Assembly: GCF_025698545.1 (NCBI RefSeq)
Contig: NC_068565.1
Span: 3,534,001 to 3,598,000 of the forward strand
Origin: Gossypium raimondii
Taxonomy: Eukaryota > Streptophyta > Magnoliopsida > Malvales > Malvaceae
Reading direction: 5' to 3'
Length of the DNA: 64,000 bases
The notes beneath the pieces are model-generated. The model was not told where the DNA came from and searched no databases. It was given only the letters and a program-made list of their open reading frames with translations. Shown one piece after another: positions 9,666 to 50,640 of the stretch. Position 1 is the first letter of the stretch, and each line of letters opens with the position of its first letter. The position numbers were made by a program, and so were the translations under genes.

Positions 9666-10128
9666 CAAAAGCTCGTTTTTTATTCGAAAATATTAATAAT
9701 GTTTTTAATTGATATTTTACATATTTCTATAATTAAATTTAAATTTTAAAATTTTTGTATTATTTAAATTAAAATAAAAATATTTATCCAAGCCTAACCC
9801 AAATCGAGTTGGGCCGGGTGGGCGATCCGGTCATGATAGGAAAGGAAAAAAAGGAAAGACGAAGCCTAAACAGGCAGTGTGCAGCCCACTAAATTTATTT
9901 TAATTCTACATACATTCCATATTATTATTTAGGGATAATATAATTTTTGACCCCTAATCTTGATAGTTAGGTGGACTTTAGTACATATGTCTTTTTTGTT
10001 CTACTTTGACACTTGAACTTCACGATTAAGTATATTTTGGTTCCTAAACTTGAAAAATTTGAAAGTTTTATGATGCAACTCTCTGAGATTGTGTTACATC
10101 ATCACTTAAAAATTAAAATATATATATT
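9666..10128. repeat. LRK10L upstream flank
   Basis: Matches 17068-17525 and 49585-50020, including GGCCGGGTGGGCGATCCGGT near 9812 and the block that ends in ATCATCACTTAAAAATTAAA. No gene. Confidence 0.75.
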
Positions 10129-11895: not shown

Positions 11896-11899
11896 ATCC

Positions 11900-12130
11900 C
11901 ATTGAAAAATCCAAGTCCATGGAACAGAGAGTAGATTTCTTGGATATTCTCATATTCAAGTTCACACCTACAATAACCACACTGGCGAGATTGTTTTTTC
12001 AATCGCACGGCATAAATGTTAATTAAGTTCCCAAGAGCGGCAAAGCATGAAAGAATAAATTTAGAAACAAATCAAAAGCGGCCATTAGGTGGCTAAACAA
12101 AGGGAGTTTTTTCCTATAATTTGGGATGCT
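11900..12130 (-). pseudogene. Heavily decayed LRK10L exon 1 relic
   Basis: About 11950-12015 matches the segment encoding the ECENNN...CG.YGFE region and the SFPFRL motif of the intact exon 1, and 12050-12130 matches the signal-peptide region (GCGGCCATTAGGTG is shared with the copy at 1-283). Multiple small indels break every frame. It probably belongs to the same dead unit as the kinase fragment at 10622-11075. Confidence 0.65.
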
Positions 12131-12270
12131 CGCTGCAAACTTTGATAGGGAACAAAAATATAAATCTGCCGACATATACAACACACATGATAAGATACTA
12201 CATACGTATAAAAGAAAATTAATATAAAACTATAAAGGTGAGATAATGAAATGAGATATTTCCAACCTCA

Positions 12271-16207: not shown

Positions 16208-18800
16208 GCTAAAATTTTGGGTAAGGAAGAAGAACAATAATGGGGGTTAATGATTAAGTTTCTAACTAAATCAGGGAAATATATAAGAAAACTTCAGTGG
16301 GAGAAGAAGCATTAATGGGGACACAAGATTTTGACTACTCTTCAGCTTTATTTGGGATGAATATTTTATTTTCAATAAATTGTTTACACCTTTTATTCTT
16401 TTATCTTTTTTCTGGGAAACACCTCAATCAAATCACATCTAATTCCAAGAACAGTGCCATGCAAGCAAAAGAAAAAGAAATTTTAATATTATTGAAAAAA
16501 TTTTAAATAAATTTGGACCATATGCTTGTAGATCAACCTTTATCACCTTAATAAACTCCAATTACAATGAGGAGGACCAAGAGAACGCAAGTCTTTAGTC
16601 TTTTTTGAAGCACAAAAACATTTAAGTGGCTGGGACCAACCTTTTGTGTTATGTAAGACAACTATTTGTTGCATCTTTCTAAAAAGTAAGTTCATAGTTA
16701 GAAGTGTCAAGCAAGGCGGCTCAATGCCCAATTGTATAGATTCTTTTTATTTTATTCCACGAATACTTCACTACTTTTCAAATAATTACTTGAATTTAAA
16801 ATAAAACAAATTAAATATAAGATATAATTTCTATTTATTTAAGTTTAAATTCAAAACTAAATTCTATTTCTAAATTTTAATTTTCTAAAACAATCTACTT
16901 AAATTAATTTAAAAACTTAAATTTGAAAATACATGAAGAGACTTCAAATTCCGTTTTATTTTAAATGAAATCGGTTTAGCATAGAGGTGTCTATGGATCA
17001 GGTCAAGTCGAACCGAAGTTCAGCTTCAAAAAATTTCTAAGTCCTAGCCTGTTTTTGATCCAACTCACCCAAAAGCTCGTTTTTTATTCGAAAATATTAA
17101 AAATGTTTTTAATTGATATTTTACATATTTTTATAATTAAATTTAAATTTAAATTTTAAATTTTTTTTATTATTTAAATTAAACTATAAAAATATTTATC
17201 CAAACCTGACCTAAATCGAGTTAGGCCGGGTGGGCGATCCGGTCAACACAGGAAAGGAAAAAAAGGAAAGACGAATCCTAAACAGGCAGTGTGCAGCCCA
17301 CTAAATTTATTTTAATTCTACATGCATTCCATATTATTATTTAGGAATAATATAATTTTTGACTCCTAATCTTAATAGTTAGGTGCACTTTAGTACATAT
17401 ATCCTTTTTGCTCTACTTTGACACTTGAACTTCACAACTAAGTATATTTTGGTTCCTAAACTTAAAAAATATGAAAGTTTTATGATGCAACTCTCGGAGA
17501 TTGTGTTACATCATCACTTAAAAATTAAAAATATATATTTTTAGAGAATGGCGTGGTACAATCTCTAAGTGTCACATTCATTATTTTAATAATCAAATTG
17601 ATAATTGAACCAGTCAGACCACTACTACTCGATTCAACTAGTTTGATCAGTTCGACTGTCGGACCAATAATAATTAAATAAATCATTAAACATTCATAAA
17701 GTTCGAAAAAAATAGAAAACAAGATTTATTAAACAGATTAAACATCGTCAACAGCTGGGGTTTTTCTTAGTTTTTTTTTACCAATTTCAAGTTTTTTTTT
17801 ATTTAATTGATTCAACCTCTTTGTTCAAACCATTATATTGATCGACTCTCAATCCCATCAGTCTAACCATCCAATCCACTCCTATACTAGTAACACTGAT
17901 CACATTATCAAATCTTAATAGAATTCAAGTTTAAGAGACCATAATAGACTTGGTTGCCAAGTCTAGATGCCACAGTGGACCAAAAGATTTACAAGTACCA
18001 AAGTAAACCTAATTGTCAAGTTCAGGGCCAAAATTTATATTATCCTTTATTTTTATTAGTTACACTACAAAAATTATAAGAGTTTTACAAATTGCACAAA
18101 AAGAAAACCTGAAAAACAGAATAGGTGCTTGAGGTAGAGTTTATATATAATTGGTAAAAATACTAAGGAAGCTCCTGTACCTAGTGGTAAATTGTATTTC
18201 GGTTCATCTACTGAAAAATGGAAAATTTAGTTTTTATACATTTTGAAATGTGAAAATTCTATTAAATGATGACTTGGACAAGTGGAAAATTATTATTTAC
18301 TAGTAAACTATAAAATGGTCACCCAACTATTAATTTTTTGATTTAGTCGCTAAACTTTTCAAAATTAAATATTTTAATTACCTTGAGCTTATGTGGTTTT
18401 TTTATTAGTCTAGTAACAAAATTATCCCACTAATATTTACATATTTTATCAATTTGGTCTTAAACATAAAAAATTAATAAATTTGGCCTCCATATTTACA
18501 AAATTGACCAATTTAATCCTAACTATAAGATTTTCTTAAATATTTCTTAAAAAAAATATTTTAGCCATTTATAACACATCCCATGTGAGATATTAAAATA
18601 AGAAAAAAATTATCCTCTTTTAAATCACTTGTAAAAAATTCAAAAATTCAGGATAAAACACCAAAAATTTAAGATCCAAAAGAAAATAAATGCATTAAAA
18701 CGTTATTTGTACAGGTAGTACTATAGCCATTTAGTCTAAATAGGTTCAAAATCAATTGGTTTGGTCCAATGTGAAGTATAAATTATAGTAAAAGAAATTG
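16208..18800. repeat. Upstream region and duplicated flank of the LRK10L gene
   Basis: 16208-16500 is presumably promoter and 5' UTR of the gene ending at 12271. It matches 48792-49010 upstream of the other complete gene. The rest matches 284-1850, 9666-10128 and 48830-50640. A segment from about 16983 (TAGAGGTGTCTATGGATCAG) to about 17255 may be an old hAT-type MITE that spread with the duplications; its right terminal repeat is poor. No other gene. Confidence 0.65.
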
Positions 18801-30840: not shown

Positions 30841-31314
30841 ACAAAGAAACTAGACATGTCAACAACAAAACAATAATGCCAACTGTAATGGGCCAATTTT
30901 GGCCTAGACCTAATAAACCAAATTAAAATAAAAAAATAGAAATCCAATTTTAAATGTCCATTTACATTGGGCCAGCAAGGCCCAAATCATAACCCAAACC
31001 AACATTAGCCCAATACCCAATTACAAACCCAAGCCCAAAACAAAACTAAAAATTAAAAACCCCTAGGCTGCAAGCCTTAGCCGCCGCCTCCAACTACCTT
31101 CAGCCAAACCGACTGCCGCCACTCCCCACGCGCAGCAGTCACGCACAACCTCCCCCACGTACACCTCGCCTCCAGCTAACCTGCGCAACAAATGGCAAAA
31201 CAGACGCAAAAAAATTGCGAAAATTACAAACAGAAAAGTAGCGAGGCAACAACAATCGCAAATAACAGAATGTAAATAGCTTTTTGATTTTATTTTATTC
31301 GGCTATATAAAGCC

Positions 31315-31591
31315 TAATAAGAACTGAAATCGAGCAGAGAATTTGGAGGAAGAAAGAGAGGAGAAAACAGATAACAAAATTCTTCTGTAATTCGATAACC
31401 TCCTTCCCATGCAGCACTTGCATATTTCAAGCAAAAGAAAACATAACAAACAGTAACTAATACTCACCAAAACGCACCGTCCAATTAACAACTAAAACTC
31501 ACCGTTTAACTAATACCCAAAACTCCCCGTTTTCAGTAACTAAATCAATTTTAGCTAATTCTTTTTCCTGCTATTATTCTATCCCGTAACA
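31315..31591 (-). repeat. 3' LTR of the host-gene-carrying retrotransposon
   Basis: Plus-strand ends TAATAAGAAC and ATCCCGTAACA; the expected TG-type end is changed to TA by one substitution. It lacks the ~18-bp purine insert seen in the right LTR near 34060. Confidence 0.9.
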
Positions 31592-31604
31592 ATACTCCCT
31601 CCCA
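31592..31604 (-). other. Polypurine tract
   Basis: On the minus strand GTGGGAGGGAGTAT lies directly before the 3' LTR. This is the plus-strand DNA primer site of LTR elements. Confidence 0.75.
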
Positions 31605-31639
31605 CAAACACATCCTTGACCTCAAGGATGAAGATGAGG

Positions 31640-32781
31640 AAATTTGGACTGAATAGCAGATAAAGGCTCCCATGTTGCATCTTCCAGTAACTTGATCAAA
31701 TTCTTGTTGCCACACATCTGGGCTTCATCAAGTGGAGTGTTTCCCCATCTGTCTTTGGAAAAAAAACACTAGCCCCAGCCTCTACCAAAAGCTTTACCAT
31801 GATATATAAGCCTTCAGAGGCAGCTACATGAAGGGGGGTTCAATGGTCGTAATCTCTAGAGTTAGGATCAACTCCATTAGACAAAAGCCTTCTCAAAAAG
31901 TTTGAGTCCCCCTTTGCCACTGCCGTACACAGATAACTACCAGTATCATCTATGTTTAAGGAAGCTCCTTCTTTAATTCGTAAAGCAGCAAGATTGTCGT
32001 GACCATTTTTTATTGATTCTAGCAAGGGTGTATTTCTGAACTTATCTTTAAGATTGATATCTACCGAGTGTCGAATAAGAAAACTTGTAATATCTTCATA
32101 TCCTTTCGATGCAGTAAGATGCGAGGGAGATTTTCCATCACAATCGGTTTTGTTAGGATCAGCTCCCACTCGTATCAAAATTTTGAGCTGATAAAAATCT
32201 CCATTATATGCAACACCATTCACCCTCAAAGCTAGCTCAGCTTCTTGTCTTCCGATGTGAAATGAAATGTTCGATTCCAGTTGCTTAACTCAGAGATTGG
32301 ATTCTTTTCCCTCCAACACACCATGACAAACAAAATAGAGTTGATCCACAACATTTCCCTGTTCCATTATTACTTCTCCTGAGAGAAAAAATTCTTCATG
32401 GAGTCTAATAACAATCTGATTAATAAAATCTAAAGAGCATTCCTTGAAAAGAGATGCATTTTCAATGTATGGCAGGTATTAAGATTGGGAAATCTTAGCT
32501 CTGATAGAGATGGGAACATCCTGAAGAACGACAGCCTCAGTTCATGTGCTTTCGTACTGTAAACGCAAGTGGCCTTTGATCTGATTGCGGTGATCCCTTT
32601 CAAGTTTATTTCTATTCATATACTTAATAACATCTGCCATTTTATCTCTGAACTTCTCTTTCTTGGATCCTTTTACGATTAATGCTGTCATGTTACCAAT
32701 GAGATAGGCACCAAGAATCATGTCAAAGGAGACATATATCATAATGAATATCATTTCCCTCATATTGACTGCATGTATGTC
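31640..32781 (-). pseudogene. Captured cDNA of a SKOR/GORK-type outward K+ channel
   Basis: Intron-free. In order: residues just after the pore (DIHAVNMREMIF), the last membrane helix (DMILGAYLIGNMTALI), the C-linker (FRDKMADVIKYMNRN), part of the cyclic-nucleotide-binding-like domain (YLPYIENASLFKEC ... EQGNVVDQLYFVCHG), an internal deletion, then ankyrin repeats (RVGADPNKTDCDGKSP, HSVDINLKDKFRNTPL, LLSNGVDPNSRDYDH) and, past a TGA, a last repeat with a shift near 31765. Voltage sensor and pore filter are absent. Stops lie near 32540, 32480, 32290 and 31840. SKOR/GORK channels release K+ to xylem or from guard cells; this copy cannot form a channel. Confidence 0.92.
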
Positions 32782-33335
32782 TTCATATTCCATGTCAAAT
32801 GCCAGAGCAGCATTTCCCGCAACTGTATGGCCATGGTCCCCAGAAAGTCCAGATGCAATAAAAATACCCTGCTATTGTGCCCTTTGAAGCTCTTGCTCTA
32901 GTTCTGTAAGCCTGAGTCGACTACTCTCAAGCTGCTGGACATAGGTTTTTTTCCTCAATCTACTATTCCTTGCAGCTTCTCGATTCTGAGCAAGCCTGCG
33001 AAGTGTCTTTTGATCATTACTTTTTGACTTGGATTGATCTATCGTTTTCACCATTACAGCTCCATGTTGAACTCCATGAAGCTGGTTTTTATGGTTAGTG
33101 TCAACATCAGTCGAAGTGTCAGTCTGTTGGCTATAATCGGCAAGGCCAGAGTCAGCCCAGTTCTTAATTTGGCCATTTCCCAAGAAGGCACCCAATGTTG
33201 CACCCTTCTGGTACATGAATTGCCCTGTATCTAAACACCCCATTCCACTTGAAACTGTCGCTGTTGCACCAATGCTCGTGTTCAAGGCACCATAGTGCAA
33301 GGTATTAGCAACAACACCAACATTGTTGGATTTTA
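32782..33335 (-). pseudogene. Captured cDNA of a TGA-type bZIP transcription factor
   Basis: Intron-free, in frame with the gag before it and the channel after it. An N-terminal region with SNNVGVVANTLHYGALNTS and DYSQQTDTSTDVDTNHKNQL leads to the basic region NREAARNSRLRKK (N-x7-R preserved) and a leucine zipper (YVQQLESSRLRLTELEQEL). After a TAG near 32874 the frame continues with QGIFIASGLSGDHGH and ALAFDMEY, typical of TGA factors just before their DOG1-like domain, which is missing. TGA factors bind TGACG and act in defence and development; the long N-terminal part suggests the TGA9/TGA10 side. Such genes have introns, so the copy came through RNA. Confidence 0.92.
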
Positions 33336-33996
33336 AACTAGAAATGGAGCCTTCTTGTTTCAAGTTGACCAGCTCCCTTATCGAATCCCAAAACGGCTTA
33401 CATCCAAAACGATCTTGAAGGCTCTTTATATACGTCGGCCAAGACGGCATTTGCAAGCCTCCATTCCTCTGAGAATAGAAATGATGCCATTCTAACGCTT
33501 TGCCTTCTAAGTTCAACATCACCATGCGGACCTTACTCACTTCAGGTATGCCTTCCGCTTCAAAATACTATTCCAATTTGGTCCACCATACTCGAAAATC
33601 ATTTCCATCGAACTTAGGACACTCTAATCGACTGGTTTTAGTAAAAACTCCTACTTCATAAGAAGGATCTCGCACATGCACACTACCTCCATCCGTGACA
33701 AAGGGTTCCGTCTGTCCTTGTGGTAAGTTAATGGTTTTAGGTAAGAACCCAGGAGGAGCTCCCAAAACCCTCTTTCCTTTAACAACTGCAGCATTTACCG
33801 ATGAACCAGTTGGTGGTGGCCCGAAATACTGAACCAACAACGACTGTAAGTCACCTCGAAACTTCGTTTTGAACTCCTGTAGTCGAGATTCCATCTTGGC
33901 CTCCAGATGCGCGATTTCCTCTTGGATTTTTGAGATTTCCTGCTACATATTGCCCACCTCTTTCTGCAACCTCGTAGAAACACCATCGCCGGCCAT
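33336..33996 (-). pseudogene. Gypsy-type gag fragment with internal stops
   Basis: The frame starts with MAGDGVSTRLQKEVGN at 33996. It holds a coiled-coil-like stretch (EEIAHLEAKMESRLQEFK), a Pro-rich spacer and a retrotransposon gag core (CPKFDGNDFRVWWTKLE, LEGKALEWHHFYSQ, KSLQDRFG). In-frame TAG codons occur near 33945 and 33565, where Gln would fit. The gag sequence passes into the bZIP segment after LKQEGSISSL without a frame change. Confidence 0.88.
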
Positions 33997-34013
33997 CAAA
34001 AGGGATCGTGAAA

Positions 34014-34026
34014 GCTCTGATACCTT
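34014..34026 (-). other. Primer binding site, initiator tRNA-Met type
   Basis: On the minus strand AAGGTATCAGAGC immediately follows the 5' LTR, one mismatch from the usual TGGTATCAGAGC. Confidence 0.8.
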
Positions 34027-34321
34027 TGATAAGAACTAAAATCGAGCAGAGAGTTTGAAGGAAGAAAAGAGAGAAAAGGAAGAAAGAGAGGAGAAAACAG
34101 ATAACAAAATTCTTCTGTAATTCGATAACCTCCTTCCCATGCAGCACTTGCATATTTCAAGCAAAAGAAAACATAACAAACAGTAACTAATACTCACCAA
34201 AACGCACCGTCTAATTAACAACTAAAACTCACCGTTTAACTAATACCCAAAACTCCCCGTTTTCAGTAACTAAATCAATTTTAGCTAATTCTTTTTCCTG
34301 CTCTTATTCTATCCTGTAACA
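34027..34321 (-). repeat. 5' LTR of the host-gene-carrying retrotransposon
   Basis: Plus-strand ends TGATAAGAAC and ATCCTGTAACA. Nearly identical to 31315-31591 apart from a purine-rich ~18-bp indel and a few substitutions. Confidence 0.92.
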
Positions 34322-36359
34322 AAGCCATTACAGAGATTGTAAATGAGGGGACGGGAAATAAAAAAGAGTTCAGTCATTCAAACAAAAAATAACCAAACAG
34401 ATCGAAGAAAAAAAAAACAAACGTGCAAAGGTCCTCTTTATTTTCTTTTTTTTCCTCTCCTTATTTTTCCGTTTTTGAAACTGTTTATACATACAAATAT
34501 TTCTTTTTTTAAAATTGTTTATACATGCAAAGGTATTTCAAAAGTGCATGAAAAGAAAAAACTTACCCCTTCTCTTTGATTTCACAAAAAAAGCCGACTT
34601 TTGACATTCAGGCCACCATAAATGGCGGCACCGACGCCGGCAATTGGTGGCCAGCACGGCGGCGACTAGCCGGGCCGACAACCGGAGAAGGGGATGGTTT
34701 AAAGAATGGGAGAGAGCTTCTCGAGTTTTTTTTTTTGAAACAAGAGACTAAATGATTATTTTTGGAAAAATTCTGAGTTAAATAGGCATTCAAAACGACG
34801 CCGTTTTGACTTGACCCGCGCGCGACCCGACCCGTTCCAGGGGGAATCCGCGTGTTTTTGCCTTTTGGGATATTTTGCTTCTAGTCCTTCCGCCTTGTTG
34901 AGTTGTTTTAATCTAGTCCTGATTTCACCTTTTTACTTCTTTTAATTTTACCCCACGAATTTCGTTTTGTTACATGACAGTTCATTGTGAAATTGCGCGC
35001 ATAAGGACCAGGGATAGTTTCCCTTTCGGACCCCATTGTTTTACCGTGTTGTATTTTTTATCCTTGTCAGCCTTTTTTATCATTTACAATTTATAGCCTT
35101 TGATTTCACTTAAACTTTAATTAAATCCCTTACTTATTTAATTTAGCTTTGTACTGTTTTATCTTATTATTATTTTATTACTTATTTCGTTATCAGCAAT
35201 TCAGCATTGCGTTTTATTTTAAAATTTACATTACTCATATTAGTTTTATATATTGATTTATTTATTATTCTTTATTTTTTAAACACTTAAATTTAATATT
35301 ATTTTTTACTTTTTTATATTTATGTACTTCTTAAATACCTAAATGAAGTATTGTTTATATCTGCTGTATTGGTTTTATTCATCTATTTATTTATCATTCT
35401 TACTTCTAAAGTACTTACGTTTTATGTCATGTATATTCATTTTATTTATTTGCTTGTTTATTTATTATTCTTGTGCTTTTTCAAATATTTAGATTTAATA
35501 TTATTTTCACTCCCTTTTCATTAGGCACCCTTTGTCTTTATTTTTATTTTTACTTTCGAGTTACTTTGTCGTTAATGGCATAAATTAATTTTCTTATTAT
35601 TGCTATTTCATATTATTATTACTATAGTATTTACCCATTTATTTGTTATTTATCGTTCTAATATATTTGTTCTCCTCATATAATCTTTTTAGATAAAAAG
35701 AAAAATTTAAATCGAAACAATGTTCATTGTTTTTGGAATTAGAAAGGTCGTACCCTAATTTACGGGGTTTCGATTTTCTTGATAAATCCACATACACGAA
35801 TCTTTTCAAACATAAGTTTTTAAGAGATCTCGGGAATTAATAAAATATCGCGTTTTAACTTAGGAGACATGATTTCTTTTCCAAACCCAAGATAATCGAA
35901 TCAAATATCTGTAAAAAAAATAAACTTTTCGGTATTCATTTCTCATATTGGGAATTCAAGACATTGTGTCCTAACTTACGAGACATAATTTTTTTCTCGA
36001 TTAACGTAAAATATGCCCTGTTCTCGAAAAAGGTTTCATTTTAACAAGGGATCGTATTTTAAAATCTTTTCCAAAATTTCAACTTTCGACACTAAGACAC
36101 TAATTAATCAACTAGGTACCAATTTTCGGCGTTACGAGGGTGCTAACCCTTCCTTGTACGTAACTGACTCCCAAACCTGTCTTTCTTAATTTCGTAGACC
36201 AAAAAGCGTTTTAATATATCAAATTAAAATAACCACTATTCGAGGTGGCCTGATCACACCTCATTAATAAGGATTGGTGGTCACTCCCATACTCATTTTT
36301 TTATTTTTTGTCAAAATCTAAATCGATCCCGTTTTACAAAAAATGGTGTCAACACCAAC

Positions 36360-36909
36360 ATTCTCAAACGCAACAACAAAAATGTTTTCAAAAAGGAAAT
36401 AGACATCACACTTAGAGTATAGAAACACTTGGATTGTAACCATGAAAAACGAAATAAGATATCCAACATCCTCATCACATTGGGTTTCCCTCTGATTCAT
36501 TAGTAGCCTCTGCAATGCAATAACACGATTAAAAGTTATTGTAGCAATAACTTTTATAAATATTAAAAAATTAACTTCCAAACACATTGATCACGTCTAA
36601 ATCTAATCTAAGTCAAGGTTGGTCTAAACATGAAAATTCTAACCAACTCATCTCAATTCAATTCAACTAAACCTAAACTAAATTGACACAAAAATCTATT
36701 TATATAATTTACTTTTAACTTATATATAATTTTAGTTATGATTTAAATTTATACATTTAATATTGAACAAATAGTCAAATTAAAGAAAATTGGTAATTAT
36801 GAACAATAACTTAACACATAGGTAATTAATGAAAATAATATAATATATATACGTAGGCAAAATAATATAAAGCTAAAAAGTGAGATAATGAAGTAAAATG
36901 TTTCTAACC
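36360..36909. repeat. LRK10L downstream flank, right half
   Basis: Continues the module interrupted by solo LTR A (ATTCTCAAAC matches 1977 and 44448) and runs to the kinase stop at 36910. Probably contains the 3' UTR of the kinase copy. Confidence 0.75.
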
Positions 36910-39195
36910 TTATGCAATATTTGAACTCGCTATAGTAACACTATCCAATGGTGTACTTGGCTCATCATTAGAGTTCTCATCAAGAGGAAGTTGATGGAAT
37001 GGTTTAGGAGGCATCTCAAGGAGTTCAACATTAGATTCAAGCATCTTCAACACTTTATTCATTGAAGGACGATCAGAAGGCAATAATTGTATACACCAAA
37101 AGGCAGTTATTATCATCTTCTTCACCATTACTTTTTCATCGTCAGAAACATCTCCTAGCTCTATGTCCTCTCCTTGATCTAATCGGTCATAAATCCAAGA
37201 TGGAAAATAGATCTGACTAGTGTGGTCAGCAAATGCATTCACATTCTTTCTCCTTCCTACCATTTCCATCAGTAACATTCCAAAACTATAAACATCGGCT
37301 TTGTATGAGATGCCTCCAAGATTTTTGTAAACCAATTCAGGAGCAATATATCCTATCGTTCCTCGTGCCGCAGTGAGAGAGACAATGCTATCATCTACTG
37401 AATACAATTTAGCAAGACCAAAATCGGAAACTTTTGGGTTAAAATGCTCATCAAGAAGAATATTGTGTGGCTTGATATCAAAATGTAGAATTTGCATGTC
37501 ACATCCTTGATGCAAGTAATGAATTCCTTGAGCTACCCCAAGCACAATATCAAACATTTTTTTCCAGCTCAAAGTATTCTTATTTTCTTCGGTAAATATG
37601 ATTTTATCTAAAGATCCATTAGGCATGAAGTCATATACTAGAGCTTGCTTTGATCCCTCCACACAAAATCCAATAAGTTTTGCCACATTAGCATGATGAA
37701 TTCTTCCAATAGAAGCAACTTCATTTATGAAATCTTGACCATTACCCTTTGATTTGCCCAACAATTTTATTGCCACGTGATGTCCACTACGAAGTTTTCC
37801 TTTAAATACTGATCCATAATCCCCTTCACCTAATTTATCGTTAAAATTTTTTGTCATTTTTTTAATTTCTCTATAGGAATACCTTATGGGAACAAAATTA
37901 TTTTGACTTTGAAGGAACTCTTCAATCATACCATCCATAGATAAGTGTCTTCTTCTCCATTTGCAAATAATAAGAGCAAGCAAACAAATGATCCCAGGCA
38001 GCGACCTCAATAAAATAACTCCAACTTTAAAAAACACAATGTAAGTCGTCAGTAGTTGTGAAATTAATCAAATAATATATAACTTACATTCTGAAAAAAA
38101 GGTATATACTGTGATAGTTTGATGCTCTTTTATAATTAACTAGTACTTGAAAGAGTGTCATATTTCACTACTTTATGGAGTTAATTTAGAAATAGCAGTT
38201 AAGACTATTAAATAACATAGTTGATACCTTGTGTTTACTCTTCTATACCAAAAATGAAAAACTTTGAAGGGCCATTCAGAACCCAAGCAAAATAAATCTG
38301 AATTATATGTTATGTTTTTGTCAATAGCAGCTACACCTCAACAAATTCAAACTCAGAACTTTGCACACAAAGGAGTAAATCATGCAAAGTGAAGACCAAT
38401 TATTCTACCCTCACACATTCGAATATATTTGACTGGTCGGGTCATGAAATTCACCCAAATCAACACATTCATAACCCCACCTAATTAGCAAATTGCAAAG
38501 AAAGAAAATGAATCTGAACCATGAATTTTCATAAATGATAAAAAGATGCAAGAGAACCCCCGCAAAAAAAAAAAAAGAAAAAGAAATGATAAATTCAACA
38601 ACTAACTTAGTTGAATGTTTTAGCAATATGAATATTCACCGAAGTTAGAACCTGTGAAAGTTCTGTAGATTGTATTCTACTTGACAAAAGAAAATCCATT
38701 CATACAAGAGAAGAAGATTGTATTCTACATCCCAACTCCTTAAAGAGTTCTGTAGATTTTTTAGTTTTGCAGTGAAATTAAATATAAACTTGTATAATAT
38801 GATAGGCTCGTCGGTTTTTTGTTTTTTTCCAGAGTATTGTTTATTGTTGTTTCTCTACCAAATCTAAATTTGTATCTGAAATTAAAGTACCTGTTATTCC
38901 AAAAACATCCCAATAGTCTCCTGTAAAAGAAAAGCACGAATAAAAACAAAATATAATTATTTCGACAACGGAATGAAGTAATAAATCCAAAGCATTACTA
39001 ATCAATTTTGGGTATAGCATACCGATATGTGCAAGGCTGTTCATATAGCTTGTGAAGAGGTCTCCCAATCCTGACAATCTGGATTATATATTCAACAAAT
39101 CAAACTAAAATTAATAAAGGAAAATAGGTGTAAAAAAATCAATTGAATTTGAAGCAAAACTCTGTATTTTGTTTTGTGGTATATCTTATTCTAAA

Positions 39196-39424
39196 TATTC
39201 CTTTTTTTCAGCCAATAAATTTTATTAAAACCGCAAGAGGAAACTGACCAAAAGGCCATTCATACACACCTAAATCACCAATAACTCGACAACAAGTATG
39301 AAAGTTAGAATCCCAAGAAACATAAGAAAACAAATGAACAAGTCAGCATAGAAGAAAACTCCACCCAAAACCCAACATTGAAGAAGAAACAAATCGCATC
39401 ATCTATCCCATATTTTTAACCAAC
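39196..39424 (-). mobile_element. Short non-LTR retroelement insertion (truncated LINE or SINE)
   Basis: A 229-bp segment is flanked by the 11-bp direct repeat CTTATTCTAAA (39185-39195 and 39425-39435). On the minus strand it ends AATAAAATTTATTGGCTG plus seven A, i.e. a polyadenylation-like signal and A run. The equivalent place in the intact paralogue (about 47425-47470) lacks it. These are marks of target-primed reverse transcription of a 5'-truncated element. The family is not recognised. Confidence 0.8.
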
Positions 39425-39719
39425 CTTATTCTAAAAAACATTATACTAATTATTTACATAATTTTTTTGTTTGTAAAAAGTATGCAGCATCTTTTACGGT
39501 ATAATAATTTTACATAACCAAAGTTATTTTATATGATGAAAGGTGAGACAAATTTTATTCAAATTAACTAATCCAAAAATATATATTATAGCATTAAAGG
39601 ATGTAACAGTGAATCATATTCAAACATAATATTATGTTTTTTTAATCATGCTGTTGTTTATATTAAGCACTTTTAAAACATTTTTTCTTTTATTTATCCT
39701 TCTGAAAAGAAACTTAAAT

Positions 39720-39852
39720 TTTAAAAATCTGGATTATATATTCAACAAATCAAAGCAAAATTAATAAAGGGTGTAAAGAAAAATTCCAAATTTGTTTACA
39801 CAAATCAATGGAAGGTAATTTAAAACATTATATCATGTTTTGTGGTGTATAC
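39720..39852. repeat. Duplicate of intron 1 sequence
   Basis: Repeats the stretch beginning at the exon 2 acceptor (ATCTGGATTATATATTCAAC) that also occurs at 39075-39180 and 47313-47450. It is evidence of a local duplication inside this unit. Confidence 0.7.
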
Positions 39853-40107
39853 TCATTGAAGGGCGATCAGAAGGTAGTAATTGTATACACCAAAAAGCAA
39901 TTATTATCATCTTCTTTACCATTACTTTTTCATCGTCAGAAATACCTCCGAACTCCAAGTCCTCTCCTTGATCCAATTGGTCATAAATCCAAGATGGAAA
40001 ATATATTTGACTAGTGTGGTCAGCAAATGCATTCACATTCTTTCTCCTTCCAACTATTTCCATCAATACATTCCAAAACTATAAACATCGGCTTTGTATG
40101 AGATGCC
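39853..40107 (-). pseudogene. Kinase-exon fragment fused to an exon 1 fragment
   Basis: Encodes the segment from near [10 protein letters not shown] through [18 protein letters not shown] to [11 protein letters not shown] on the minus strand. A one-base deletion near 40068 shifts the frame relative to intact copies. Its right edge (GATGCCTC near 40105) passes directly into exon 1 sequence at a shared CCTC, reversing the normal gene order. Non-functional. Confidence 0.85.
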
Positions 40108-40276
40108 TCAATGTAAAGCGATGATTTTATAGGTTTCGTGCAATTCATAACATAAATAATGCTAACCTCTAACCTTCTATCATAATAATTACCATAAGGA
40201 TAAATATAAGAATAAGAAAAGAATCTACAAAAGTAACTAAGAGGAAGGGAGTTGCAATCATCCGTGTCCAACAATC

Positions 40277-40829
40277 AACCCCTCCCAGAGTAGGCTGTCG
40301 AGGAGCCTCCTGCACATCATAAATAGCACGAGTTGTACGCCCCAAAGCATTTGCCAAGGACCATCAAGATGAAGGTCAATAACATTTGTGTAAATTTGGA
40401 GTGCTACCTTACAGCCAAAACTAACAGAATAGTGACTGTTTGGATTGAAATGCCAATTATGAGTCAGTTCGGAGTCGGATACAAGCAAAGTAGCATTCGA
40501 AGCATCCGTTGCGCATCATAGGAGATAGAAGACCGTGAGTTACATGATTTCATTTTGAGTATTGAAAATTGAAAATAGGATAAGTACCAACCACTAATAT
40601 ATTATCAGCAAAATCTCCCAATTGAAAGAACAATAGATGCATCTATACTATGTTTAAAAGTTTAATAGAGTTTATGGTTATCTATCAATGAGGTATCAAC
40701 TCAATTGTAAAATCATTAAAATCTTATTATTTTTAAAAACAAAAAATATTATATTGAGAGTATTTTTATTTTTTATTAAACTTTATAAAAATACATCAAT
40801 TTAATAGAATTTGAACCCAAAACATCATA
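40277..40829. other. Unidentified segment, then AT-rich DNA
   Basis: 40277-40520 is less AT-rich than its surroundings and open on more than one frame on the minus strand for 60-76 codons, but I recognise no domain. It abuts the exon 1 fragment and may be filler from another gene or element. 40560-40829 is AT-rich and featureless. Confidence 0.35.
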
Positions 40830-40834
40830 ATCCT

Positions 40835-43230
40835 TGTACAGACCCAATTTCTGCCCGGCCCACTAACAAAAAGAACCCAAAACCCACAAACCCAATAACC
40901 CACCTAAACACTAACCCATACCAGCAGACCCAATTACAAGGCCCAGTGGCCCAAAATTTTAAAATCATTTCAGAAACCCTAATCCCCCTAACCCTAGCCG
41001 CCTCTTCTGATCTTTCTGCTACTACTGCCGCCATCACCTACCCTCTGCCACCGCCACTGTTTCGCCCACTTGCACCACCTGCTCCACCTGCAAAACAAAG
41101 GAGAACACGCAAGCAAAGAAGGACAAAACAGTAGAAACAATAATAAAATAAATTGTGTAAAAATGGCTATATAAAGGCCATTCAAACGAATTGTAAGGGG
41201 TTCGGCCCCTCTTTCACTATTTCAAGAAATAAAAAGGGCAAAGAAAACGGATTCAAGAAATTTTTCTTTTGGTATAAACTCTATTTTCTTTTATTTATAT
41301 TTTTCTCTTTATTTTTCTTCCATCCGAAACTGTTTGATTCTTTATTCTTATTTTTATTTTTCTTTTATTTTTAAAAACATATATGGCCAAGTTCGTCGGA
41401 TTCTGGGCAGTGCTGGAGAGGGGGAGAGGATATTTTTGAGAAGAAGAGTTTTTTTTTTTTTAATGAAAGCTGAAAATGATTTTTTTGGGGGAAACCTTGA
41501 CTTTTATAGGCCCCCCAAAACGACGTCGTTTTGGGCAAGCCTCTTAGGTACCAAAACGGCGCCGTTTTAAGGCCGGCCCGAAAACCGACCCGACCCGCCT
41601 GAAGGATCCGCGTGTTTTCGACGGAAGGGATAATTGCGTTTTCAGGCCTTCCGCTTTTAAATAATTTTGCAATCAAGTTCTTTCCTTTTTTTAAAATTCG
41701 CCCTATATTTTATTTTCATTCACAATCTGGTCCACTTTGAAATGCAGTGTTTTGGAGGGTGGGGATTATTTCCATTTTGGTCCCCCTCTTTCCGCGCGTG
41801 TCACAATTTAGTCTTTTCAGTCTTTTTTTATTTGAAATTCGCTCAGTATTTTTATTTTTACTTCGATTTAGTCCCTTTTTTAGTAGTATTATTATTATTA
41901 TTATTAATTATTGCTAGTTTTATTTTCCTTAAACCTATTCGTCACTGCTTTGATTAGTATGTTAACTTGTTTCATTATTATTATAGCTTTCTTTTTTATA
42001 ATATATGTACATGTACCTATGAATATTTTTTATATATATATGCATACATAATTATATACATATATATACCTTATAATATTAATGCGTACATACTTTTATT
42101 TATTAAATATTTTTATACTCTATATTTTTATACACTTGTATATATACAAACATCTATGTTTCAATTCATATAAATATATGTACGTATACATAGTTATGTG
42201 CTTTATGTACCTATTATAATTTGTTTACATGTTTATATATATCTATACATATATTTTTATATTTCGTGATAGTTATATGTACACATATACATGTAAATAC
42301 TTATATTTTATGCCTCATAATATATATTTTCATATTTTCATATTTTATGATTTTCATCTATTTTCCTTTATTGTTATTGTAATTTTCATGTGTATTTGTT
42401 TATTTATTTATATGTCTATTTTTTATGTTTTAGTTTTTTTTTTATTTGTTATGATATATGCACAATTAATTTAGTTTATTATTTGTTTTGTTTTGTTTTA
42501 TTCACACAATCATGTTCAATATTCCATTATGCATATAAATATCATATTTCAAAAGGAAAATATTTCTAAATGAGGCAATGTTTTGCGTTTGGAAGTTCGA
42601 GAAAACATGTCCTAAGGTGCTGGGTGTCGATTTTTCTCGTTCAACCAAATAGCTTAATATCCTTTTAAATTTTTAAAATAAGGCAATGTTTTGCGTTTGG
42701 AAATTCGAGAAAACATGCCCTAAGGTCTTTGGGTGTTGATTTTCTCGTTCAACCAAATGGCTTAATATCCTTTTAAAATTTTTAAAATAAGGCAATGTTT
42801 TACGTTTGGAAATTCGAAAAAACATGCCCTAAGGTGCTGGGTGTCGATTTTTCTCGTTCAACCAAATAGCTAAACATCCTCTTGAATTTAAATTCATGCC
42901 ATTCGAGTTTTTAGGATCGTATTTTAAATTTTTTTGAAGTTTTCAGTTTTTTGACACTAAGACATTAAGTAATCAACTAGGTACCAATTTTGGGCGTATC
43001 GAGGGTGCTAATCCTTCCTCGTGCGTAATCGACTCCCGAACCCGTTTTTCTGAATTTCGTGGACCAAACTTGTTGTTTTAATAAAATCAAATCGTTTATT
43101 AAAAACAACCACTTTTTGAGGTGATCCGATCACACCTCATCAAAAAGGATCGGTGGCGACTCCCGTTTTCGTTCTCATTTTTCAAAACCCAAGTCGACCC
43201 CATTTTCCATCCAAAAAAATGGTGTCAACA
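40835..43230. mobile_element. Solo LTR of a gypsy family (copy B), 2.4 kb
   Basis: Begins TGTACAGACCC, ends GGTGTCAACA, and is framed by the perfect 5-bp duplication ATCCT (40830-40834 and 43231-43235). Its TATA-like GCTATATAAAGGCC (near 41166) is followed by two palindromes, AAAACGACGTCGTTTT (near 41516) and AAAACGGCGCCGTTTT (near 41553). At 42570-42890 there are three tandem copies of a ~105-bp unit. Short open frames in it are low-complexity. Same family as 30884-36354. Confidence 0.88.
42570..42890. repeat. Three tandem ~105-bp units within solo LTR B
   Basis: Each unit contains GGCAATGTTTTGCGTTTGGA and TTCTCGTTCAACCAAATAGC. Copy A of the LTR has no comparable triplication. Confidence 0.9.
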
Positions 43231-43235
43231 ATCCT

Positions 43236-45154
43236 TATTACCTAAATTTTACCATACCAAACAAAGCCACATTTAGCTTTTGTATCATTTTTTAAATAAT
43301 CTAATATATCTTTATTTAATAAGTAATAATCCCATATGCATTAGAGAGAGTATTAAGTTGAGTTATTAAATTTAGGGTTTGTTATATTCTAACGGGTTAT
43401 TTTCAATTCCATTGAAATGATTTATAGGTGATAACTTTTACAATTTAATACGATTAATTTTATTATATTACAATGAAAAACAAAAGAAAAAGAAGAATTT
43501 AATATGGTTCAAAGTTTTTAAATAAATCTGGACCAGACAAACCTTTACCATTAATCTATTCCAACTTCAGTGAGAACGACCAAGACAATGCAAGTCTCAA
43601 GTCCTGTTTGAAACGCAAAAGCATTCAAGTGGTTGGGAGCAGCAAGCCTGATCCCTTTTGTCCTTTTGTGTTATGTAAGTCAATTGTAGAGAACGATTGT
43701 TGGAATTTTCTAAAACGTAAGTTAATAGTTAGAACCCTTGAGCAACGCACATTCCACCCCAACCCATGCATAACGTTAGACGAGACTCAATGTCTCATTG
43801 TATACATTTTTAATTTTATTCAACAACTACATAAGTATATTTTTAAATGATTTTTAATATAATTACATGTATTTTCATCTATTTTATATGAATTTAAAAT
43901 ATTACAAATTAAATATAATTAATATAAGATATAAGTTCTATTTAATTAAATTCAAATTCAAATTCAAATTTTAAATTATCCAATAATATAAATAGTAGAC
44001 ATAAATTTAAAGAAAAAATTGGGGTTTAGTTGAGAAATTACCTCTCAAATTCAACTAAAATAAATAAAGAGAGTTTAACTGGAAAATTACCTTTCAAATT
44101 TAACTGAAATATGAAACATACTCAATAATAAGGGTATCAATTCAAAGGTATAAAGCTACATAAATTCTTAGTTATGTCTTTGAAATATTTTCACAAAGGC
44201 ATGTGCAAAACTTTTGATTCTAAGCAAATTCATTGTCTCAATATTACTTATTTAAAATCAAATCCACATTTATTTTTAAACAAAATCCAACAATGTATTT
44301 GGCTCATCCAACAATTTATTTTTAAATGGCATTTATTTAAAAAGAACCAAATGAGAATTATTATACAACTTTATAAAGTCGATGACACATCCAACATTTA
44401 AAGCACAAAGAAACTAGATTGGCCAACAACAAAACAATAATGCCAACATTCTCAAATACCGCAACAAATTTGTTCTAAAAACAAAAGATAGCGCATCGCA
44501 CTTAGAGCGTAGAAATACTTGAATTCAATCATTGTAACAACGAAAAAGGAAACAAGACATCCAACATCCTCATCACAATGGATTCGCCTCTCACCCGCCA
44601 ACAACGTCTGCAATGCAATAAAACAAGAAGAGGCTATTGTGGTAGCAACTCTTATAAATATTCCAAAATTAACTTTTAGATGCATCAGGTCTTAATCTAA
44701 GGTAAAGGGTTTATCCAAACATGAAAAATCTAACCAACTCAATTCAATTCAACCTAACCTCAACCTATCTATATAGTTTACTTTTAATTTATATATAATT
44801 TCTATTATGATTTAAATTTAAATATTTTTAACAAAATTTTAAATACTTAATATTGAACAAATAGTCATATTAATGAAAATTTGTAATTATGATCAATAAC
44901 TTAACACATAGGTAAAAGTGTTTTTTTTTTACTTAATAATATTATTAGCAATAGTACGTTATTAATTGTATATGAAAATAATGAAGCTTAAAATTAAAAT
45001 TTAAAGACAATGCCATTGTCAAATTTACTCAAAATTTATTTTTAACTATAGTTATCTATGTACATATGTGACACACATAATAAGATGCTAATATATATAA
45101 GGCAAAATATTATAAAGTTAAATGGTGAGATAATAAAGTGAAATGTTTCTAACC
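43236..45154. repeat. LRK10L inter-unit flank and 3' region of the next gene
   Basis: 43320-43860 is related to 11076-11550; 44340-45154 is the downstream module (landmark AATAATGCCAACATTCTC near 44437) ending at the kinase stop of the intact gene. No gene is seen. Confidence 0.7.
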
Positions 45155-48100
45155 TTATGCAATATTTGAACTTGTTATAGTAACAGTATCCAATGATGTA
45201 CTTGGCTCATCATTAGAGTTCTCACAGCTATGAATCTCCATTGATGTTTCAAGCGGAAGTTGATGGAATGGCTTAGGAGGCATATCAAGGAGTTCAACAT
45301 CAGATTCAAGCATCTTCAAAACTTTACTCATTGAAGGACGATCAAAAGGCAGTAATTGTATACACCAAAAGGCTGTTATTACCATTTTCTTTACCATTGC
45401 TTTTTCATCGTCAGAAACATCTCCCAACTCCAAGTCCTCTCCTTGATCTAATCGGTCATAAATCCAAGATGGAAAATAGATCTGACTAGTGTGGTCAGCA
45501 AATGCATTCACATTCTTTCTCCTTCCAACCATTTCCATCAGTAACATTCCAAAACTATAAACATCAGCTTTGTATGAGATGCCTCCAAGATTTTTGTAAA
45601 CCAATTCTGGAGCAATATATCCTATCGTTCCTCGTGCCGCAGTGAGAGAGACAATGCTATCATCTACTGAATACAATTTAGCAAGACCAAAATCGGAAAC
45701 TTTTGGATTAAAATTCTCATCAAGAAGAATATTGTGTGGCTTGATATCAAAATGTAGAATTTGCATGTCACATCCTTGATGCAAGTAGTGAATTCCTTGA
45801 GCCACCCCAAGCACAATATCAAACATTTTTTTCCAGCCCAAAGTGTTCTTATTTTCTTCTGTAAATATGAGTTTATCTAAAGATCCATTAGACATGAAGT
45901 CATATACCAGAGCTTGCTTTGATCCCTCCACACAAAATCCAGTAAGTTTTGCCACATTGGCATGATGAATTCTCCCAATAGAAGCAACTTCATTTATGAA
46001 ATCTTGGCCATTACCCTTTGATTTGCCCAACAATTTTATTGCCACGTGATGCCCACTACGAAGCTTCCCTTTAAATACTGAGCCATAACCCCCTTCACCT
46101 AATTTATCTTTAAAACTTTTAGTCATTTTCTTAATTTCTTTATAGGAATACCTAATGGGAACAAGATTGTTTTGGCTTTGAAGGAACTCTTCGATCATAT
46201 CATCCATAGATAAATGTCTTCTTCTCCATTTGTATGTAACAAGAGCAAGCAAAAAAATTATCCCAGGCAACGACCTCGATGATATAACTCCAACTTTAAA
46301 GAAATACAATGTAACACGTCAGTAATTGTGAAATTAATCAAATAATTTTTAACTTACATTCTCAGAAAAAAGTATATAGTGTGATAGTTTTATGTTAACT
46401 AGTATTTGAGATATTTCACTAGTCTATGGACTTAACCGAGAGTAGTCCGAATTATATGTTATGTTTTTGTCATTAGCAGGTATATCTCAACAAATTAAAA
46501 TTCAGAATTTCAAACACAAAAGGAGTAAATCATGCAAAGTGGATACCAATTCTAACCTCACACATTCCAATAGATTGACAGGGTCATGACATTCGCCCAA
46601 ATTAACACATTCGTAACCCCATCCAATTAGCAAATTCTAAAGAAAGAACAGGATTCTTAACCATGAAGGATACTCAACTGTTGTCTCTATTAAAAATAAA
46701 CTTGAGGAAGGACAAATTAAAAATATAATAACCTTCAAATTTCATAAATGAAACAAAATCTAGAACCACCAAAAGATGCAAGAGAACCCCCCAAAAAAAA
46801 GATTTGATAAACTCAAGAGCTAACTTTCTTTACTTGACAAAAAAAATATTTTTTCGTATAATAGAGGAAGATTGTTTTCAGCATTCAAACTCCTTAAAGA
46901 ATGCTATAGATTTCTTAGTTTTGCAGTGAAATTAAATATAAACTTGTATACTATGATAGGCTCCTTATTCTTCCCCCCCCCCCCCAAAGAATATTGCTAA
47001 TATCTTTTCTTAACTAGTGCTAGAATTTGTATCTGAAAAAATGCAAATCTGCAAATCCAAAATTAACAATACCTGTTATTGCCAAACAGAGAATATAAGT
47101 TCCTGTAAAAAAACCACGAATAAAAACGAAATATCATTATTTCAAGAGAGCAGCGAAATAGTAAAATCAAAGCACTTCTAAATTCTAATGAATTTTGGGA
47201 ATCATACTTCTTGGCATAGAATCGTTGATATCGTAGTAGACATGGGGGCCGTGGAAAAGGAAATATACAAAGCTGTCCATATAGTTTCTGAAGGCAAATT
47301 TCAAGTTTGACAATCTGGATTATATATTCAACAAATCAAAGTAAAATTAATAAAGGGGTGTAAAGGAAAATTCCAAATTTGTGTAAAAAAATCAATGGAA
47401 GGTAATTTAAAACATTATATAATGCTTTGTGGTATATACTCAAAAAAAAAAAAATACAACAATTCTTTACATATGTTTGCTTGTAAAAAGTACGCAACAT
47501 GTATTACAGTATAAGAGTTTTAGGTAACTAAAATGATTTAATATAATGAAAGGTGAGACAAAATTTATTCAAATTAATTAATCCAAAAGTATATATTATT
47601 GCATTAATAGAGTTTTGCCAAAAAATAAACTCATCCTCAATGGTGGAATATTTACGTACTACCAACTAAATTGAAAATTCATCAAAATTTAAAAAGAAAA
47701 TAAAAGAGAGACATTATGTTCGCAGAATTTAGAAACATTGTGGTTGTAAAAACATAATCAAATATAATTGTCCAAAAGAAGACAAAACAGCAGAGGCAGA
47801 TACTAAATTAGAAATGCTTTTAGTTCATTTGATTGTTAGATGTTGATCAATTTTAGATGCAAAATCATGATTCTTAATTACCATCATAAAATTTAATTGC
47901 GAAAAAAGTAACATAAAATAAAACAAAACAAAAGTAGATGTTATAACTAAAAATTCCAGAATGATGCACACTCAAAATGCAAACTTAAATTATTAAAGAA
48001 ACTTACATTTCTTTAAACGACGAAACTTTAACTTTATTTTTATAACAACTCTGGTACCTGCACGTATTCCATTTGACCCAAAAACCCTCTAATAGTTTTT

Positions 48101-48791
48101 TGTAGATATCCAGTGTAGACATGCCTATTATATTATCAATCATAATTGGAACCTCCGCTTCGATAGTGCAAGCTTGATTGATATCAGATAGGTGGGTGTT
48201 TCCATTTAAAAAATAGAAATGAGAAGTTGGAAGGGAAGAGGAAGTATTGGATTTGATGGTACAACGAGAAGCCTCAATATAAAGTGATGATTTTATAGGT
48301 TTGGAGCAATTCATAACATAAATAATGCTACCCTCTAACCTTCCACCATAATAATTATAATAATTATAACTAGAAGAAGAAGAAGAAGAAAGAAAAAGGG
48401 AAACAGATGATTGATCATAATGGTAATGATAAGGAAGTACAGAACTAAGAGGAAGAGAGTTGCAATCATCCGTGTCCAAGCTCGCATCGACCATTCGTAT
48501 TGTATAATTTTCGTAAATGATTTGTTGGACAGAGAATTTCCCTCCTCTCCCAACCAAAGTGGTGCGATTATTGTTCTCACACTCAAATTCAAAGCCATAA
48601 TGACCACAGTGGGGAGGTTGGTTTTTTAATCGGAATGGAAAACTGATATTCAAATTCCCACAGAAAGTAGAGCCGCAGTCTTGGTTAATAAGACTCCTAG
48701 CAAAACAAACAGCAGGAAATAGAATTACAAATAAAGCAAAAGAGAGCATTAGGTGACGGAACAATGGCAGTTTTGCTTTTAATTTTGGCAT
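45155..48791 (-). CDS. LRK10L-type receptor-like kinase, complete four-exon gene
   Basis: Proposed exons on the minus strand: 48791-48007, 47314-47208, 47102-47073 (30 bp) and 46293-45155, all GT-AG, phases 2, 1, 1, giving about 686 residues (a Met at 48821 would add 10). Signal peptide, GUB_WAK_bind region ([15 protein letters not shown]), variable Ser/Tyr tract, then exon 2 with [15 protein letters not shown] before the transmembrane helix ([11 protein letters not shown]). Kinase, roughly residues 367-640: [11 protein letters not shown] (about 373), Lys 394 in [14 protein letters not shown] (about 488), DFG (about 508), [12 protein letters not shown] in place of HRD marks a non-RD kinase. 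C-tail rich in Ser/Thr. Predicted plasma-membrane receptor in perception or defence; ligand unknown. This is the best-preserved copy. Confidence 0.88.
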
Positions 48792-50640
48792 GCTAAAATT
48801 TTGGGTGAGGAAGAAGAACAATAATGGGGGTTAATGATTAAGTTTCTAACTAAATCAGGGAAATATATAAGAAAACTTGAGTGGAAGAAGAAGCATTAAT
48901 GAGGACAGAAGACTTTGACTAGTCTTCAGCTTTATTTGGGATGAATATTTTATTTTCAATAAATTGTTTACACCTTTTATTCTTTTATCTTTTTTCTGGG
49001 AAGAGCCATGGTTATCACAAGCAAAAGAAAAAGGAATTTTAATATTATTCAAAAAAAAAAAAATTTGGACCATATGCTTGTAGTCGTAGATCAACGTTTA
49101 TGACCTTAATAAATTCCAATTACAATGAGGAGGACCAAGACAATGCAAGTCTTTAGTCTTCTTTGAAACACAAAAACATTTGTTGCATCTTTTGTAACTA
49201 TTTGTTGCATCATTCTAAAAAGTAAGTTAATAGTTAGAAGTGTCAAGCAAGGCGACTCAATGCCCAATTGTATAGATTCTTTTTATTTTATTCCACGAAT
49301 ACTTCACTACTTTTCAAATAATTACATGAATTTAAAATAAAACAAATTCAATATAAGATATAATTTCTATTTATTTAAGTTTAAATTCAAAACTAAATTC
49401 TATTTCTAAATTTTAATTATCCAAAATTAATTTAAAAACTTAAATTTAAAAATACATTAAGAGACTTCAAATTCCGTTTTATTTTAAATGAAATCGGTTT
49501 AGTAAAGAGGTGACTATGGATCAAGTCAAGCCGAATCGAAGTTCAGTTTCAAAAAATTCCAAGTCCTAGAGCCTATTTTTGATCCAACTCACCCAAAAGC
49601 TCGTTTTCTATTTGAAAATATTAAAAATATTTTTAATTGATATTTTACATATTTTTATAATTAAATTTAAATTTTAATAAAAATTATTATTTAAATTAAA
49701 CTATAAAAATATTTATCCAAATCTGACCCAAATCGAATTAGGCCGGGTGGGCGATCCGATCATGACAGGAAAGGAGAAACAAGAAAGACGAAGCCTAAAC
49801 AGGCAGTAAATTCATTTTAATTCTACATACATTCCATATTATTATTTAGGGATAATATAGTTTTTGACCCTAATCTTGATAGTTAAGTGGACTTTAGTAC
49901 ATATATCTTTTTTGTTCTACTTTGACACTCGAACTTCAAATATTTTGGTTCCTAAACTTGAAAAATATAAAAGTTTTATGATGCAACTCTGTAAGATTGT
50001 GTTACATCATCACTTAAAAATTAAAAAAATATATAAATATTTTTAATTAATATCTTATATATCTCTATAATTAAATTTAAATTTAAAAAATATTTTTTAT
50101 TATTTAAATTCAACTGAGATTAAATCAAAATAAAATGTAAAAATACTTATTCAAATCTGACCCAAATTGAGTTGGGCCGGGCAGGCTACCCAGTCATCTC
50201 AAGTCTACTTTAGCACAGGTAAGTAAAGTTGAATCATTAGATTGGGATATATGTGTGCTTCGGGTAAATACTTATTTGGGCTGAATTATTTGGACTTCAA
50301 TTATGAATTTAATTTTTTACTAATATGTGTGAGAAGCCCATTCTTTTATGAATTTTGGGCCACTTCGGTTTCGTCTTCAGGAATTAAACATTCATAAAAA
50401 TCTAAAAAAATTTATTAAATTATTATTTATTAATTAAACCAGTTGATTATTCAATCGGTTTGACCACTAGTTCTTGATTCAACTCATTTGATCGGTTCAA
50501 CTACCCAACTAACAATAATTAAATGAATGATTCAACATCCATAAAAATCTAAAAAAGAATATTAAATCAATTACATATGTTCAATAGCCAAGTTTTTTTT
50601 TACTAATTTCAAACAATTTTTTAATTTAATTGATTCAACC
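48792..50640. repeat. Promoter region and duplicated upstream flank
   Basis: 48792-49010 is near-identical to 16208-16420 and probably holds the promoter and leader of the kinase gene. 49100-50640 matches 16500-17880 and 284-1620. A local repeat is present: the block at 49605-49760 recurs diverged at 50035-50200. Confidence 0.65.

Follow-up and report, generated by a model that had tools for sequence, protein, structure and literature searches.

How did a single retrotransposon come to carry pieces of two unrelated host genes? The question is raised by a 3-kb element at positions 31315-34321, minus strand, of the window, which is the whole 64,000-nt stretch analysed here (Gossypium raimondii, contig NC_068565.1, positions 3,534,001 to 3,598,000 of the forward strand). 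In this element a fragment of gag is followed by a TGA-type bZIP piece and a SKOR-type K+ channel piece. A preliminary description of this DNA held that one long terminal repeat (LTR) element had transduced two host mRNAs. Both mRNAs were indeed captured, but not at once, since elements with gag and TGA but without SKOR exist and a damaged locus displays a gag-TGA unit joined to a gag-SKOR unit. The best explanation is probably a stepwise build, by splicing from a donor within gag and by jumps during reverse transcription. The window copy is composed of the following parts (a slash marks a joint, donor or exon border throughout).

34322..34326, no strand: target-site duplication AAGCC, right copy
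34027..34321, minus strand: 5' LTR of 295 bp, TG...CA
34014..34024, minus strand: GGTATCAGAGC, resembling a primer-binding site (by eye) and taken here to fit the initiator-Met tRNA
33351..33996, minus strand: gag fragment, from ATG (33996) to the presumed splice donor (..CAAGAAG/)
32784..33350, minus strand: TGA-type bZIP piece, intron-free, seven parent exons, beginning at a parent exon 5' border
31675..32787, minus strand: SKOR-type K+ channel piece, intron-free, from the GYGD filter motif to ankyrin repeats; 219 nt are absent at about 32313/32312 and the frame shifts near 31763
31592..31685, minus strand: C-terminal integrase/chromodomain tail of a gypsy chromovirus, overlapping the SKOR match by about 10 nt
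31595..31605, minus strand: purine-rich tract adjoining the 3' LTR, resembling a polypurine tract (by eye)
31315..31591, minus strand: 3' LTR of 277 bp, TG at its start and TA, not CA, at its end
31310..31314, no strand: target-site duplication AAGCC, left copy

The matching LTRs and the perfect 5-bp duplication named in the preliminary description were borne out: the pair aligns with 5 substitutions in 275 columns plus a gap of 16+2 nt, and the terminal CA/TA, if counted, is one further substitution. Two LTRs, TG..CA ends on the 5' LTR and the target duplication together place the element among LTR retrotransposons. The joined bZIP and channel segments were identified as described. Pfam and the PDB chains of TGA3 and TGA7 match the TGA piece; the top match of the SKOR piece is solved SKOR itself (E 7.8e-167, with a 73-residue gap), and solved SKOR and GORK chains also match. 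Ty3_capsid and Retrotrans_gag match the gag piece at E 7e-5 to 3e-4, under the Pfam cut-offs. The tail is 95.7% identical over 93 nt to two chromovirus copies, L018 and L019, which also have the LTR in common with the element (about 86%), and the L018 open reading frame passes Pfam Chromo. Judged by gag and the chromodomain-bearing integrase tail, the element is a Ty3/gypsy chromovirus derivative. It has no protease, reverse transcriptase, RNase H or integrase core of its own, as gag, TGA, SKOR and tail make up the whole interior; the window copy is a decayed, non-autonomous chromovirus (gypsy) copy. No second copy was found within the 64-kb window, and no relatives were found in IMG/VR using the gag-bearing pieces as query.

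The genome (750.8 Mb in 281 contigs, with the window on contig C1) was searched for matches, and the best 40 of 187 candidates were scored. The SKOR parent is located at C5:8417870-8423194 and matches exon by exon at 94-98%, and the TGA parent at C12:47053279-47055113 at 90-98%. Both are split by introns that are exactly removed in the element, and the parental borders inside the captured parts are GT-AG at all those read; therefore processed RNA was captured, in agreement with the preliminary description, which had proposed the transduction of two host mRNAs. Parent introns were sought inside the element segment and were absent, the parent exon junctions being joined exactly. A contiguous chimeric host gene was also sought; there was none among the matches listed (best 40 of 187), where TGA and SKOR adjoin only in gag-bearing copies. 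Clean exon skipping was considered as the origin of the gap in SKOR and was rejected: the gap of 219 nt is shorter than parent exon 4 (222 nt), and a GAG is kept. Because of this retained GAG and the position of the gap between TGGAGGG repeats of the mRNA, the gap is ascribed to a copying jump.

The order of capture is read from other copies in the same genome, the counting of which had been proposed in the preliminary description. Two further full copies, 92% identical, were found with target duplications of their own (the script used found one in 11 of 17 loci tried): L010 at C5:1053939-1056934 (AAATA, LTR pair 93.0% identical) and L011 at C1:34956522-34959530 (TAGCC, 97.6%). The window TGA piece is 94% identical to that of L010 and L011, slightly nearer than to L012-L014 (91-92%). 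The elements L012, L013, L014 and L017 carry gag and TGA without SKOR, and pol sequence follows TGA. At C1:50361036-50363161 (L016, locus C1:50358500-50365500), gag, TGA and SKOR are present, and about 60 nt from a second gag (ending ..CTGAAGCAGCAAG) stand between TGA (ending ..GGAATATGGTCG) and SKOR, which starts exactly at its exon border (GTTATGGAGAC). By eye, 42 of the 45 letters compared in this gag remnant agree with L018. When the segment between the TATGG repeats is taken out, the L016 arrangement becomes the TGA-SKOR joint of the window copy, L010 and L011. L016, a damaged fourth copy, looks like an intermediate; it lies between 850-bp direct repeats starting TGTAACACC (locus positions 1697-2543 and 4669-5513) and was possibly re-captured by another LTR family. 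Because gag-TGA elements without SKOR exist and L016 retains a second gag, TGA and SKOR were not acquired together. The main gag of the window element is 87-95% identical to the gag-TGA elements L012-L015, as against 72-73% over aligned pieces (67-70% over the whole) to L018 and L019, with which its LTR and tail are shared. It thus seems that each gene was captured in a different family and that the two were then recombined.

Capture in this lineage was not limited to these two genes. At least five host genes are involved in total (TGA, SKOR, GAPDH, a helicase-like gene and a kinase), to which the sister elements contribute at least three. A GAPDH piece lies in a gag-TGA-GAPDH-integrase element (L015, C13:44337000-44344000, about 2437-2246, minus strand), with Pfam Gp_dh_N and a parent of two exons at C11:57962981-57963521. 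The helicase-like piece, presumably SKI2, has its parent at C2:39902881-39903914 and gave no PDB match and no Pfam helicase match. The kinase piece, assumed to be casein-kinase-like, has its parent at C8:1272918-1274931; it follows a TGA fragment in L043, L044 and L048 and ends a gag-TGA-helicase-pol bit-kinase chain in L022, L045 (C13), L046 and L047 (both C9). In L022 (C5:56472000-56479000) the chain occurs twice in tandem, the middle LTR apparently being common to both. Pfam Pkinase was found in L045, and the shorter frame of L044 had no Pfam match. Eight element copies hold the kinase piece, five at 98-100% and three at 94-95% to the L045 query. All told, captured host sequence was found at no fewer than 19 places, comprising 9 with long TGA, 2 more with helicase but no kinase and 8 with kinase, each figure being a lower bound. 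L045 and L047 have 552 open codons and LTR identities of 98.4% and 98.7%, so that this kinase-type branch is young.

In the gag-TGA joint and in the gag-SKOR joint of L016, gag ends at the identical nucleotide. On the host side, the joint coincides with an exon 5' border at all three testable sites, i.e. TGA (gene ..ttgtag/GCTCC), SKOR in L016 (gene ..gacag/GTTATGG) and GAPDH in L015 (gene ..gtgaag/GATTCGG). Furthermore, uncaptured gags have GT directly after the joint site in 14 of 15 copies: all six of L018, L019, L020, L049, L050 and L051, and eight of nine others (the exception has AT), the nine being a subset of the gag-only matches listed, with matches ending before the site excluded. 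The exact gag-tail pattern followed by GT occurs at 18 places, one of which is the L016 SKOR joint. These sequence comparisons are best read as the trapping of host exons by a splice donor within gag, as the common gag nucleotide and the host exon borders suggest. The joint in L015 reads ..CAACAAG/GATTCGG, and TGA itself ends in CAACAA, so CAAG alone indicates gag. In seven copies the helicase-like joint follows ..ATGAAACAGCAAG/ or a variant with 1-2 altered letters; its gag side is AAACAGCAAG or variants, after which the gene begins at an in-exon AG border. At the TGA, SKOR, GAPDH and SKI2 joints the codon is split after its first letter, as at the gag site, so that all four are in frame.

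A mechanism in four steps is proposed. An element of one gag lineage, presumably inserted in sense within or upstream of a host intron, would have been transcribed into the host gene, and its gag donor (..CAAG/GT) would have been spliced to the next TGA exon. The resulting gag-TGA RNA would have retained the 5' region for packaging and priming. In a second family, SKOR would independently have been captured by an element at the same gag nucleotide. Reverse transcriptase would then have jumped at short common stretches, so that both units gained an integrase tail and 3' LTR; the gag-TGA unit would have been fused to the gag-SKOR unit (the L016 state), and a later deletion between the TATGG repeats would have cut out the gag remnant to give the window type. 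Finally, the chimera may have been mobile in trans, swapped gag stretches with gag-TGA elements, and decayed.

Several observations weigh against this stepwise account. Its witness is damaged, since L016 has neither LTRs nor a primer-binding site of the window element's family, and no gag-SKOR element without TGA was found among the matches listed. Conserved Gly-Thr codons account for the GT behind the gag site, so that this GT by itself is no proof of donor use. The exact gag tail followed by GA, GC or GG occurs at 5 places, all known TGA fusions, and followed by a letter other than G at no place in the genome; no captured gene other than TGA was found after the exact tail in either class, with a pattern that is blind to diverged tails. 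The GAPDH and SKI2 joints keep only 4 and 10 nt of the gag tail, the SKI2 gene border (..TACAG/TTCAGG) is inside an apparent exon, and the kinase joint lies mid-exon at a GGGAA overlap, for which reason it is not regarded as donor-made. No element remnant was detected beside the parent exons (2.2 kb upstream at the SKOR locus, L009; 1.3 kb upstream at the TGA locus, L032), so the presumed intronic insertion was not seen; the GAPDH and SKI2 parent loci were hardly inspected in this respect. The copies also do not form a simple tree, as the window gag is nearer to L012-L015 (87-94%) than to the SKOR-bearing L010, L011 and L016 (84-89%). Later gag exchange is the likeliest cause of this misfit, without being assignable to a particular copy, and confidence in the stepwise build is slightly lowered because the window gag departs from the tree of its sister copies.

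Among the rivals, template switching survives best, namely that all joints were made in the particle by switching onto mature host mRNA, with the matches to exon borders due to chance or RNA structure. Short overlaps are found at the SKOR-tail joint (about 10 nt), the TGA-SKOR joint (TATG), the 219-nt gap (TGGAGGG) and the TGA-kinase joint (GGGAA), and switching is among the mechanisms given for chimeric plant LTR elements in a review (PMC13317346). However, switching on mature mRNA has no reason to follow exon borders, and the TGA, SKOR and GAPDH joints are on an exon 5' border in three of three cases, two of them clearly at one gag nucleotide, which makes switching an unlikely source of every joint. 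In a second rival, a free retroelement RNA is trans-spliced from its gag donor to the acceptor of a host pre-mRNA, with no insertion in the host gene. This predicts the same exact borders and accounts for the absence of a remnant beside the parent exons, but in plants unlinked nuclear RNAs are rarely trans-spliced, so that it ranks as rather improbable, below template switching.

The stepwise build leaves the question of what the chimeras encode. In the window copy a single minus-strand frame of 745 codons spans gag, TGA and SKOR and contains 7 stops, and the other minus-strand frames of the four pieces have 8-18 stops each. Given this frame and the two other 92% copies, the coding signal is not due to chance. 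Joints readable on both sides in the printed translations were the following 21.

Window: TGA-SKOR, 219-nt gap, SKOR-tail; general: gag-TGA
L016: TGA-gag remnant, gag remnant-SKOR
L015: TGA-GAPDH, GAPDH-pol
L045: TGA-helicase, helicase-pol, pol-kinase, gag-TGA gap, TGA-TGA gap
L043/L044: TGA-kinase, kinase-tail, gag-TGA, TGA-TGA
L021: TGA-TGA gap
L012/L014/L017: TGA-pol, pol-tail
L013: private TGA gap

The native frame is kept at 19 of them, the exceptions being the pol-tail joint of L012/L014/L017 and the L013 gap; one third would be expected in frame if joints were blind to frame, and the count is post hoc, includes joints of common ancestry and excludes single-copy small indels. This retention suggests, as a conjecture, that chimeras with a long open gag-host frame were favoured, for example through escape from nonsense-mediated decay or a need to translate fused Gag. 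Protein-level selection after chimera formation looks weak or absent: the ratio of nonsynonymous to synonymous substitution rates (Ka/Ks) between copies is 0.66-0.94 for SKOR and 0.49-1.33 for TGA, and the 0.51-0.61 of SKOR against its parent includes the parent's own constraint. A domesticated TGA-SKOR gene kept by selection is therefore dismissed as very improbable, since the in-frame joints, the 552 open codons of the kinase-type L045 and L047 and the lower Ka/Ks against the parent are countered by the 7 stops and frame shift of the window copy and by the copy-to-copy Ka/Ks values.

The influence on K+ release or TGA-dependent defence that the preliminary description had envisaged for its products is not supported by the sequence. 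The SKOR match begins at residue 291 of 828, presumably leaving out the voltage sensor, 73 residues of the cyclic-nucleotide-binding region are absent and the frame holds 7 stops. The window copy is without sign of function. From the divergence of the LTRs about one stop would be expected, so that seven are an excess (P about 2e-4 to 9e-4 when the uncertainty of the LTR estimate is included). In the host pieces, to which the comparison of stops among copies was confined (the window's 2 gag stops lying outside it), five occur, of which four are private among the copies compared and one, at TGA codon 159, is also present in L011 and L014; TGA codons 75, 121 and 123 are stops in several other copies. 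The idea that the stops predate the last jump was not upheld, as four of the five host-piece stops are absent from all other copies compared. The excess could stem from recurrent mutation of the same codons, from LTR conversion or from a source copy that had already decayed.

The element sits between two regions of duplicated receptor-kinase genes and fragments (about 9000-17500 and 36300-50000, many on the minus strand, alike up to about 92% over long stretches), which are presumably LRK10-like. A 379-codon open frame at 7217-8356 on the plus strand resembles, we assume, an mTERF protein.

The way in which plant LTR elements acquire host genes has mostly been deduced from end products. In this genome the route becomes readable joint by joint, as it retains the parents together with uncaptured elements, first-step captures, an intermediate and the final chimeras. 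For two or three genes the 5' joint points to splicing, and the remaining joints to template switching; a testable prediction is that spliced gag-host RNAs arise from one donor. Frame retention, rather than protein function, is suggested as the filter on chimeras that spread. A wider proposal, on which belief and doubt are about evenly balanced, is that the gag splice donor is built in and acts as a standing exon trap: it would have taken two, probably three to four, host genes (TGA, SKOR, GAPDH, SKI2-like) in at least two families, and recombination would then have linked the captured units, nearly always in frame with gag, into chains with as many as three host genes, of which the youngest (gag-TGA-helicase-kinase) was recently amplified. 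The window copy is a fossil of stepwise capture, of interest for the route taken and for the lineage that kept capturing.

Compared with known systems, the element is a variation on the type of capture known from maize Bs1, a member of what we take to be a different lineage. Bs1 (PMC13317346) likewise is an LTR element with several host gene pieces in one chimera, formed from H+-ATPase, xylan endohydrolase and beta-1,3-glucanase genes. The captured genes differ here, and parents, intermediate, alternative captures and the common gag joint are found in one genome. Intron-less host copies inside LTR elements, often non-autonomous, were reported from rice, sorghum and pepper (PMC3726574, PMC5664825), including two or three genes within single elements of pepper (PMC5664825); the portions of these surveys considered describe neither a gag splice donor nor stepwise fusion of units. 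In BARE (PMC3735527), the RNA of a plant LTR element is spliced to a Gag-only RNA, which makes a donor near gag realistic, although that splicing is internal to the element and the partner here would be a host exon. No description of plant host exons being captured by way of a splice donor in gag was found in the literature, judged by titles and abstract openings. In retroviral oncogene transduction, read-through is followed by splicing from a donor of the element to host exons, and the 3' end is gained by recombination during reverse transcription. The proposed first step and the gain of the 3' end would resemble this model, with the difference that a plant retrotransposon is concerned, that several unrelated genes are chained and that no selected phenotype is known. 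In conclusion, the exon trap, if true, would parallel in plants the transduction of oncogenes by retroviruses and offer LTR elements a general means of exon shuffling.

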